The position numbers and the translations under genes were made by a program. Positions 48,635 through 51,196 of a stretch of 64,000 nt of DNA are shown piece by piece (position 1 is the stretch's first letter; every line of letters begins with the position of its first letter). The notes beneath the pieces were generated by a model. The model had not been told where the DNA came from, ran no database searches, and worked only from the letters and a program-made list of their open reading frames with translations. This DNA is from Methylobacterium sp. WL1 (GTDB lineage Bacteria > Pseudomonadota > Alphaproteobacteria > Rhizobiales > Beijerinckiaceae). The DNA lies in the NCBI RefSeq assembly GCF_008000895.1, contig NZ_CP042823.1, positions 3,624,001 to 3,688,000 of the forward strand. Reading direction: 5' to 3'.

Positions 48635-50005
48635 CTACAGCAGCGTCCCCCGCAGGATCAGCAGCGCCACGGAGAAGTAGATCACCAGCCCGGTCACATC
48701 GACCAGCGTGGCCACGAACGGGGCCGAGGCGGTGGCGGGGTCGAAGCCGATCCGTTGCAGAATGAACGGCAGCATCGAGCCGGCGAGCGAGCCGAACATC
48801 ACAATCCCGATCAGGGCCGAACCCACCGTGGCGGCCACCAGCGGCCAATGCTCGCCGTAATCGTAGAGGCCGAGCTTCTGCCAGGCCACGATCCGGATCA
48901 CTGCGATGACCCCCAGGATGCTGCCCAGCACGATGCCGGTGGGCAGCTCGCGTAGCGCCACCCGCCACCAGTCGCCGAGGCGGATCTGGTGCAGGGCGAG
49001 TGCCCGGATCAGCAGAGAGGTCGCCTGCGAGCCGGAATTGCCGCCCGAGCTCATGATCAGCGGGATGAACAGGGTCAGGACGATCGCCTTCTCCAGTTCG
49101 CCCTCAAAACCCTGCATCGCCGAGGCGGTGAGCATTTCGGAGAGGAACAGCGCGCATAGCCAGCCGGCGCGCTTCCGGATCATCGTGAAGAAGCCGATAT
49201 CCATATAGGGCTCGGGCAGCGCCTCCATGCCGCCGAAGCGCTGCACGTCCTGGGTCTGCTTCTCGACCATGGCGTCGATCATGTCGTCCACCGTGACAAT
49301 GCCGATCAGGTGCCCGACCGCGTCGACCACGGGCAGCGCCAGCAGGTCGTATTTCGAGATCAGCCGGGCGGCCTCCTCGCGACTCGCCGTGGGCGACACC
49401 GCCAGCGGCCGCCGCCCCGGGGCGACGCTGAGCACGTTGTCGCTCGGGTCGCCCGAGATCAGGCGGCGCAGGGGTACCGCCTTGGTCAGCGCCCGGGTGC
49501 GCGGATCGAGCACGAAGATCGCGTAGATGGTCTCGCGGGTCTTCTCGACGTGGCGGATGTGCTCCAGCGTCTGGCCCACCGTCCAGGTGCCCGGCACCGT
49601 GACGAACTCGGTGGTCATCAGCGAGCCGACCGTCTCCTCGCCGTAGGCCGACAGCCGATCGACGGCGCCGCGGGTCTCGGCGTCGAGGCGGGCGCGCAGG
49701 TCGGAACGGCCGGGTTCCTCGATCTCCCGGAACACGTCCGTGACCCGGTCGGCCGACATGCCCGAAAGGTAGGCCGCCACCCGGTCGCGCGGCAGCATCT
49801 CGATGATGTCGGCGGCCATATCGAGTTCAGGCTGGTCCAGCACCTCGATCGCCCGATCCATCGGCAGGCCAAGGATGATCGCGGCAGCGACCTCGGGGGC
49901 CTCGTCGTTCAATGCTTCGACGATGTCGGGGGCGCGCTCGTCCGAGAGGCGTGCGGCCAGCACGGAGGGGTCGACGCGCGCGTCGATGGGGGCGATCTCG
50001 TTCAT
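48635..50005 (-). CDS. mgtE: magnesium transporter MgtE
   Basis: This 456-residue inner-membrane Mg2+ channel has the cytoplasmic N domain (DMAADIIEMLPRDRVAAYLSGM), then a tandem CBS pair (SLMTTEFVTVPGTWTVGQTLEHIR and LPVVDAVGHLIGIVTVDDMIDAM). Five TM helices follow with the pore signature PLIMSSGGNSGSQATSLLIRALAL and FVATLVDVTGLVIYFSVA. All parts are present. The start is ATG 50005; open sequence upstream to 50086 is low in plausibility. Confidence 0.93.
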   Translation of the reverse strand: MNEIAPIDARVDPSVLAARLSDERAPDIVEALNDEAPEVAAAIILGLPMDRAIEVLDQPELDMAADIIEMLPRDRVAAYLSGMSADRVTDVFREIEEPGRSDLRARLDAETRGAVDRLSAYGEETVGSLMTTEFVTVPGTWTVGQTLEHIRHVEKTRETIYAIFVLDPRTRALTKAVPLRRLISGDPSDNVLSVAPGRRPLAVSPTASREEAARLISKYDLLALPVVDAVGHLIGIVTVDDMIDAMVEKQTQDVQRFGGMEALPEPYMDIGFFTMIRKRAGWLCALFLSEMLTASAMQGFEGELEKAIVLTLFIPLIMSSGGNSGSQATSLLIRALALHQIRLGDWWRVALRELPTGIVLGSILGVIAVIRIVAWQKLGLYDYGEHWPLVAATVGSALIGIVMFGSLAGSMLPFILQRIGFDPATASAPFVATLVDVTGLVIYFSVALLILRGTLL

Positions 50006-50438
50006 GGCCTCGCCTCGCGGATGACGAGACGGCGCGCCGCCGGTCTTGCTGGTTGAGGGCCGCGACCGGCGGCCAACGCCGCTCACCCCGCGGCCGGGCC
50101 TCTCAGCGGCTCAGGCGGGATGACGGCGCGTCGCCGGGCACGGCAGGCACGATCGGTCTGGCACGTCGCTTCGCTGTCGATGCTGAAAGGGAGCGCGGGC
50201 CACCCGCATGGAGGCCCGACGCGGCTGCCTCGTGCCCCTACGGGAATAGTCCGTCAAGCCGAAACCACTGCGTGTTCCCAGTTCGCTTTCACGATCGCGC
50301 CGGGGCGTGGCCGAGAAGCCGCGACGGCACCCGCGCCCTACGCCCCAGCTCCCTATGAGAAATATAAGTGTTGTGCTCGCTTGTATTGCGCCCAAGATAT
50401 TGCCTATATGGATCTCAGCAACAACGAGGAGAAACGCC
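50006..50438. other. intergenic region upstream of mgtE and pqqA1 (divergent)
   Basis: Four hundred and thirty-three bases hold no gene I can support. The last 90 bases are unusually AT-rich for this genome and contain the candidate pqqA promoter. No riboswitch was recognised upstream of mgtE. Confidence 0.5.
50381..50410 (+). promoter_or_regulatory. candidate promoter of the pqqA pair
   Basis: TTGTAT (50381-50386) and TATATG (50405-50410) are 18 nt apart, within an AT-rich island starting near 50355. TTGTGC at 50371 is an alternative upstream box. The pqqA1 start follows after 28 nt, so the leader would be about 20 nt. Confidence 0.4.
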
Positions 50439-50528
50439 ATGGCTTGGTCCGCCCCCATCGTGTCTGAGATCTGCGTCGGCATGGAAGTCACCAGCTACGA
50501 GTCGGCCGAGATCGACACCTTCAACTGA
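50439..50528 (+). CDS. pqqA: coenzyme PQQ precursor peptide, copy 1
   Basis: This 29-residue peptide has an N-terminal half MAWSAPIVSEICVGM and a C-terminal half EVTSYESAEIDTFN. The Glu16 and Tyr20 of the E-V-T-x-Y motif are the two residues that PqqE, PqqF/G, PqqB and PqqC join and excise to form pyrroloquinoline quinone, the cofactor of methanol and other alcohol dehydrogenases. GAGGAG lies 7 nt before the ATG. No pqqBCDE is present nearby. Copy 2, with identical protein, follows 81 bp downstream. Confidence 0.93.
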   Translation: MAWSAPIVSEICVGMEVTSYESAEIDTFN

Positions 50529-50530
50529 GC

Positions 50531-50574
50531 AGGCCCTACCCTGGGTTGGCTCTGCGACCCGGGGAGTTAGGCCT
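50531..50574 (+). promoter_or_regulatory. hairpin between the two pqqA genes
   Basis: Just after the first stop, CCCTGGGT (50539-50546) pairs with ACCCGGGG (50557-50564) with one wobble and a 10-nt loop. The stem is extended by CTA/TAG and AGGC/GCCT around small bulges. TTGTTC follows. It could attenuate read-through into copy 2 or protect a short pqqA1 mRNA. Confidence 0.5.
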
Positions 50575-50609
50575 TGTTCGTCCCATCATTTCCATTTTGG
50601 AGTCATATC

Positions 50610-50699
50610 ATGGCTTGGTCCGCCCCCATCGTGTCCGAAATCTGCGTCGGCATGGAAGTCACCAGCTACGAGTCGGCTGAGATCGACACATTCAACTAA
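50610..50699 (+). CDS. pqqA: coenzyme PQQ precursor peptide, copy 2
   Basis: This 29-residue peptide is identical in sequence to copy 1, but the DNA differs at four codons, all silent (Ser9, Glu10, Ala23, Thr27), and in the stop codon (TAA in place of TGA). The ribosome site is different too: GGAG at 8 nt within TTTTGGAGTC. The flanks show no similarity to those of copy 1, so only the coding part has been kept. A rho-independent terminator follows 28 bp after the stop, so the unit contains just the two peptides. Confidence 0.93.
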   Translation: MAWSAPIVSEICVGMEVTSYESAEIDTFN

Positions 50700-50727
50700 G
50701 ACGTCTATCGTTCGACAGAACGAAGGA

Positions 50728-50759
50728 AGGCGCCGCTTCAATCGAAGCGGCGCCTTTTT
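50728..50759 (+). terminator. rho-independent terminator of the pqqA pair
   Basis: AGGCGCCGCTTC (50728-50739) pairs perfectly with GAAGCGGCGCCT (50744-50755) around AATC, followed by a T5 run. It is the strongest intrinsic terminator in the window and separates the pqqA pair from anything downstream. Confidence 0.85.
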
Positions 50760-51196
50760 CATGCGCAACACACGGTCAGGATGCCGGATACCGGTTTGTC
50801 GGACATCAGGCCGCCTGATCTTCAGCTTGCGCGGCAGCTTTAAAGACCGGCTCCACCCGCCAAAGCGGCAGCGGATCCTGTACTGCTCCGATGAAGCTGG
50901 CGCGCGATAAACCGGAACGGCAACGCCAGTGGTGGTTCGAATCCATTACGCGCGGTGCAGCACAACAGTCGCACAAGTAGCGCCCATGCCCGCTCAAGGG
51001 CGCATGACCGTCTGTACTGACGCCCAACTAGGCAGATATTACGTGTGACAACAGAGATATGAGGGTTTCACAGAACCAACCCCAAATCTGTTCGTCCCGT
51101 CGATCAAGTGCAGCGTGATGCGGCTGCCACCGCACTCAGCCCTTGTGTCGACGCACTCGCGCACGCCGAACCAGTACCCACTTCCGCGGCGAGCGC
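50760..51196. other. intergenic region downstream of the pqqA pair
   Basis: No gene is supported in these 437 bases. A tRNA T-arm-like string GGTTCGAATCC occurs at 50934-50944 without the rest of a tRNA. The segment near 51040-51090 is AT-richer. It may be a degraded integration site or plain spacer. Confidence 0.4.

Follow-up and report, generated by a model that had tools for sequence, protein, structure and literature searches.

Twin orphan pqqA genes and their conserved upstream element in Methylobacterium sp. WL1

The window, by which we mean the whole stretch of 64,000 nucleotides that was analysed, contains two pqqA genes of 29 codons each. Both ORFs translate to MAWSAPIVSEICVGMEVTSYESAEIDTFN, and both score 36.3 bits against the PqqA profile PF08042, well over the cut-off of 21.1. 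The E-x-x-x-Y spacing is present in both copies (E16, Y20), and its Glu and Tyr are the residues that are joined into PQQ. At the DNA level the ORFs differ silently at codons 9, 10, 23, and 27 and in their stop codons (TGA versus TAA), and the sequences 5' of the two ATGs appear unrelated by eye. The spacer between the genes is 81 bp long. The original prediction had described two 29-codon genes for the same PQQ precursor peptide, 81 bp apart, with four silently differing codons, different stops, and unrelated spacers and ribosome sites, which translation, codon comparison, and inspection by eye all bear out. By every sequence test the twin appears functional. The features of the locus are:

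48638 to 50086, minus strand: mgtE, Mg2+ transporter, divergent neighbour (PF01769)
50352 to 50370, plus strand: upstream box CCTATGAGAAATATAAGTG, core of a conserved element (UP-element-like or activator site), from the footprint over 81 orphan loci
50381 to 50386, plus strand: proposed -35 TTGTAT, with TTG[TA][AG]T at an invariant position in 80 of 81 orphan loci
50404 to 50409, plus strand: proposed -10 CTATAT, 17 nt past the -35, with CTAT[ACGT]T in 61 and CATAT[CT] in 13 of 81 orphan loci
50426 to 50431, plus strand: ribosome-binding site of copy 1, GAGGAG, by sequence reading
50439 to 50528, plus strand: pqqA copy 1, 29 codons plus TGA
50529 to 50577, plus strand: hairpin directly 3' of the copy 1 stop (fold, compensatory changes, z-scores)
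50598 to 50602, plus strand: ribosome-binding site of copy 2, TGGAG, by sequence reading
50610 to 50699, plus strand: pqqA copy 2, 29 codons plus TAA, peptide identical to that of copy 1
50727 to 50760, plus strand: intrinsic terminator, an 11-bp stem with a 4-nt loop followed by TTTTT

The genome comprises 6.25 Mb in two contigs and contains one further PqqA match at C2:2692373. This third gene, pqqA1, encodes the peptide MKWAAPVVSEICVGMEVTSYESAEIDTFN, which differs from the twin peptide in three residues, and its stop is 34 nt from the start of pqqB. In a genome-wide profile search the over-cut-off matches to PqqA, PqqB, and PqqE besides the twin were found only at C2 2.692-2.696 Mb. All of them are outside the window (C2 3.624-3.688 Mb), which agrees with the earlier statement that there is no other pqq gene near the twin. 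PqqE (587.9 bits) and PqqB (396.6 bits) are each present once above cut-off, and PqqC/D was read as an ORF beside their matches. Because PqqB and PqqE adjoin pqqA1 about 0.98 Mb away, the twin is a true orphan unit. The arrangement is of the kind of pqqA2/pqqA3 in M. extorquens AM1: the tandem is located away from pqqBCDE, and pqqB is preceded by a pqqA1 of its own.

PqqA is present in all 111 genomes of the genus that were searched, and 106 of these, our genome included, have tandem pqqA genes (start-to-start distance of at most 283 bp). No tandem array was found in G025, G037, G039, G109, and G110; the assemblies of G037, G109, and G110 consist of 390 to 730 contigs. The family sample comprised 149 genomes, seven of them belonging to Methylobacterium. 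None of the 68 genomes outside the genus that contain PqqA (E <= 0.001) has a pair as close as 283 bp, the nearest pairs (G181, G231) being about 445-465 bp apart. A scan of named genomes for compact twins, in which records near the window's own genome were possibly left out, returned 64 stretches, and 63 of these are labelled as Methylobacterium, Methylorubrum, or MAGs of Methylobacteriaceae / Beijerinckiaceae; a match in Agreia sp. Leaf283 is without a PqqA ORF and was rejected as a chance match. The unit is kept in most of the sampled species of the genus. Scattered copies are found besides the arrays in some genomes, with six, five, and five pqqA matches in G013, G033, and G035, respectively.

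We read 101 of the 106 tandem loci (leaving out those of G019, G077, G078, G107, and G108). The arrays consist of two copies at 91 loci, of three at nine, and of four at one. At 63 of the 101 loci, our own included, mgtE is located upstream on the opposite strand, and the MgtE of G028 is 100% identical to that of the window. At 19 loci the array is directly before pqqB, and the genomes with such an array heading pqqBCDE have no third pqqA listed and lack the upstream element described below. Neither mgtE nor pqqB was present in the stretch read at another 19 loci; for L081, one of these, the upstream sequence is only 68 nt long. L081 (G047, 69-635), at the start of a contig, is made up of four pqqA copies that do not differ in DNA, separated by 69-nt spacers that are likewise identical. 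Either the array was amplified recently or the assembly has truncated it. In the Methylorubrum-type locus L073 (777-3610) the orphan array is placed between serS-like and MarR-like ORFs, which were named by eye. The element is found about 160 nt upstream of the L073 array, and therefore the array has kept its element even among other neighbours.

This element upstream of the orphan arrays is about 58 bp long and extends from CCTATGAGAAATATAAGTG to CTATAT. Its 9-base seed AAATATAAG is found at most 400 nt upstream in 81 of the 82 orphan loci, the miss being L081 with its short upstream sequence. With the seed left out, the element is conserved at 1.45 bits per position, compared to 0.24 in the 22 positions directly before it. 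Its offset to pqqA is 77-82 nt in most arrays (79 nt in the window) and about 160-190 nt elsewhere. The CCTATGAGAAATATAAGTG box has one site in its own genome at zero mismatches, and a 36-bp core of the element (at most three mismatches) has exactly one site in 88 of the 111 genus genomes. The reversed pattern, as a control, has no site in the 111 genomes, and the core itself is absent from the 142 genomes of other genera that were sampled in the family. Of the 88 genomes with the core, 85 have it on the same contig as, and directly upstream of, a pqqA; in the other three (G037, G047, G110) the contig that carries it has no listed pqqA, and in G047 this is a different contig from that of the L081 array. 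The 23 genomes without the core are the 19 pqqAABCDE genomes and G025, G026, G077, and G109. A wider regulon was considered and rejected, because no second core site was found at this threshold in any of the 111 genus genomes.

Taking TTG[TA][AG]T and CTAT[ACGT]T as -35 and -10 would place the box about 46-62 bp before the predicted start site, and we infer that the element is a promoter. The proposed promoter is not listed by a general promoter scan; its basis is the cross-species footprint. A leader peptide starting from the ATG at 50355, in frame with copy 1, was rejected since the offset varies between loci and the substitutions, judged by eye, are not codon-like.

At the other end of the unit, a terminator-like site as defined by our own rule follows the last copy in 81 of the 82 orphan loci; after shuffling, such a site is present in 10 of 82. 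The original prediction had given the unit its own promoter candidate and terminator, and both were recovered here as a conserved promoter-like element and a T-tailed hairpin after copy 2. Because of its T counting, the general scan put the terminator hairpin on the minus strand only. A sub-threshold Rfam match on the opposite strand over the terminator (P17, 17.5 bits versus 45) was regarded as chance.

The inner spacers are also predicted to fold close to the preceding stop codons. The 46 nt after the inner stops have a median z versus shuffles of -1.85 in the 67 mgtE-type, -2.59 in the 19 pqqB-type, and -1.34 in the 26 other spacers, compared to 0.01 in 392 flanking control windows and +0.26 to +0.35 in the last 35 nt of the spacers, which include the ribosome site. 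Folding of the whole spacers is unconvincing (median z of -0.8, with 12 of 112 below -2). In the mgtE-type two-copy loci a 7-pair stem has 88.2% of its cells paired versus 81.3% after shuffling (0 of 500 shuffles as high), and slid versions of the stem reach at most 60.7%; this test comprised 23 of the 24 closest loci (one with a longer spacer was excluded), and the alignment that served for the test had also served to derive the stem, which favours it. Four of the seven stem pairs of the mgtE-type alignment have compensated changes. The covariation is weak in the Methylorubrum-type spacers, where two of six pairs are changed on both sides in an alignment of 14 of the 19 other loci (five were left out). 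Only 23 of the 112 inner spacers meet the terminator rule, and the inner hairpin therefore looks less like a full terminator. It might rather be a site for processing, stabilisation, or weak attenuation.

The original prediction regarded the twin as an old duplication that has been preserved because selection acts on the peptide. In part this stands, as the arrangement is old and the 112 adjacent pairs have on average more silent (3.4) than replacement (1.2) codon changes. Against it, only 39 of the 112 pairs have identical peptides (six have identical DNA, three of these within the four-copy L081), and the likeness of copies within genomes points to homogenisation. Under a single ancient duplication without exchange, copy 1 and copy 2 should have diverged equally within and between genomes. 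At the 59 two-copy mgtE loci they differ by 6.3 nt within a genome and by 10.8 nt between genomes, with none of 5000 permutations as low. For the closest 24 loci the values are 5.8 versus 6.7 nt (3 of 5000), and the other locus groups show the same direction, although shared codon usage and relatedness may contribute to this likeness. Since the copies within a genome are more alike than those across genomes, homogenisation or repeated re-duplication very likely aids their identity, and the comparison suggests gene conversion (or re-duplication) among the copies within genomes. For the window pair itself, the copies of the nearest relative match by position (two and two differences versus five and three across), which speaks against recent homogenisation. 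For 50 of the 59 genomes, copy 1 has its nearest match in the copy 1 of another genome, as is expected with close relatives in the set.

One PqqA is consumed per PQQ, and therefore extra peptide genes can set PQQ supply. We consider it probable that the unit is a stand-alone, separately controlled source of the PQQ precursor peptide. The private promoter, consisting of box and -35/-10, would generate a short transcript with two PqqA cistrons, which would be framed by the hairpin past the first stop and the terminator past the second. The twin peptide would then join the pqqA1 peptide and be processed by the single PqqBCDE set that is encoded 0.98 Mb away. Extra and separately controlled peptide may thus raise or re-time the PQQ supply with the enzymes unchanged, while gene conversion between the copies would help to hold the peptides alike. 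Both the separate regulation and the benefit through dosage are our interpretation of the arrangement. Separate control does not extend to the whole genus, since the 19 pqqAABCDE genomes lack the element. Published expression would fit separate control in AM1 and M. aquaticum. The orphan pqqA2/pqqA3 of AM1 changed fourfold between Nd sources and most pqq genes were without a rise (PMC11317620). The paper is inconsistent on the direction: the results have the orphan pqqA higher on NdCl3, and the discussion implies that it rises on Nd2O3. For M. aquaticum 22A, PMC5784242 has pqqA1A2 going up on methanol with and without La, and pqqBCDE going up only with Ca. In Beijerinckiaceae strain RH AL1, pqqA copies fell on Nd (PMC10848612).

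It could also be that the copies are purely redundant, a backup kept alike by gene conversion without a separate regulatory or dosage role. The greater than expected likeness of copies within genomes is in line with this, as are the two-copy loci L065, L090, and L104, whose ORFs are identical in DNA within unrelated flanks. A mere backup is nevertheless unlikely, because conservation in the upstream element far exceeds that of the adjoining sequence, because the element is unlike the regions upstream of pqqA1 and of the arrays in the pqqAABCDE clade, and because the published expression of orphan copies is unlike that of the operon. Considerably less probable is that the orphan peptide or its product has a non-cofactor role, for example in lanthanide handling, as suggested in the discussion of PMC11317620 and in keeping with the Nd-dependent change of the AM1 orphan copies reported there. 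The orphan peptides have kept the E-V-T-x-Y core and the whole PqqA profile, and there is no additional export or binding feature visible in the 29 residues. Moreover, mgtE is the only metal gene beside the unit and is replaced by serS-like and MarR-like neighbours at L073. The chances are slim, too, that the conserved upstream stretch is a structured, riboswitch-like RNA leader instead of a promoter. Its position 77-82 nt upstream of most arrays would be near enough, but the consensus fold of 64 distinct sequences from the 81 loci has only three pairs (-1.72 kcal/mol), no Rfam family was found over gathering score at 49.0-52.5 kb, and the -35/-10-like hexamers are at a fixed spacing of 17 nt. 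With almost no consensus structure, a promoter or operator acting at the DNA level is the simpler reading. Spacer, flanks, and silent sites differ between the copies, and 106 of 111 genomes, among them several single-contig assemblies, have the arrangement; an assembly duplication of the twin therefore has a negligible probability and was rejected.

The stand-alone peptide source that we favour is ordinary in kind. Orphan tandem pqqA genes are already known from M. extorquens AM1, and the tandem pqqA of M. aquaticum is in print as well. What we add is the distribution across the genus, the element present once per genome, the hairpins that frame the copies, and the signs of homogenisation; the testable novelty of the unit is its putative private promoter. 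In the open-licence PMC literature we came across no mention of the element or of a genus-wide pqqA survey, by which we do not claim that there is none. The Methylophilaceae belong to a different class of bacteria, and multiple pqqA genes of Methylophilaceae / Methylovorus were reportedly described by Ge in 2015. They resemble the unit in having several pqqA copies over one processing set (PMC4109929, PMC9851590). In this family five pqqA genes commonly accompany a single set of most of the remaining pqq genes (PMC4109929), and the strain of PMC9851590 has two pqqA in operons and three apart, but no compact twin as in the window. AM1, known here from print, likewise has two orphan copies, pqqA2/pqqA3 (MEXAM1_RS21885/RS21890), away from the pqq operon, whose adjacency is suggested by the neighbouring locus-tag numbers (PMC11317620, PMC6520949). 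The Methylorubrum-type genomes of our set carry orphan arrays as in AM1, and L073 differs from the window in its serS-like/MarR-like neighbours and the distance of its element (about 160 versus 79 nt). M. aquaticum 22A shares the tandem pqqA with a spacer, but there the twin heads pqqBCDE (pqqA1A2BCDE; PMC4392154, PMC5784242), whereas the window twin is apart from it. Our 19 pqqAABCDE loci are without the element and their genomes without a listed third pqqA; the window twin has the element, and its genome a third pqqA. The original prediction's explanation that orphan copies allow the loss of a single pqqA in M. extorquens is not new: PMC6520949 had already proposed it and pointed out that orphan copies need to be considered when single-pqqA deletions in this group are interpreted.

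In these plant-associated methylotrophs the methanol dehydrogenases use PQQ as cofactor, and the unit bears on the question of how the cells adjust PQQ supply to enzymes that depend on Ca or lanthanides. The pqq regulation that was observed is described as unexplained or counterintuitive in PMC5784242 and PMC10848612. A conserved candidate promoter that is present only before orphan peptide genes provides a direct handle on the factor that binds it. As a tentative extension, which we would not yet bet on, the unit could be a regulon of one: in most Methylobacterium a regulator would read the once-per-genome 58-bp element and set PQQ supply by the peptide alone, independent of pqqBCDE, and the hairpins after each cistron would cut the transcript into stable single-peptide messages.

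A minor observation is a position-specific codon choice at the conserved Glu16 within the E-V-T-x-Y core (50484-50486 and 50655-50657 in the window). The codon is GAA in 207 of 211 tandem copies (two of 213 were excluded for length). In other genera of the family, 19 of 20 loci provided PqqA copies, and 22 of these 22 copies have GAA. The seven ORFs around the twin have the opposite choice, with 107 GAG versus 22 GAA. Codon 10 of pqqA is free (95 GAA, 116 GAG); at codon 21, 200 of the 211 tandem copies have GAG.
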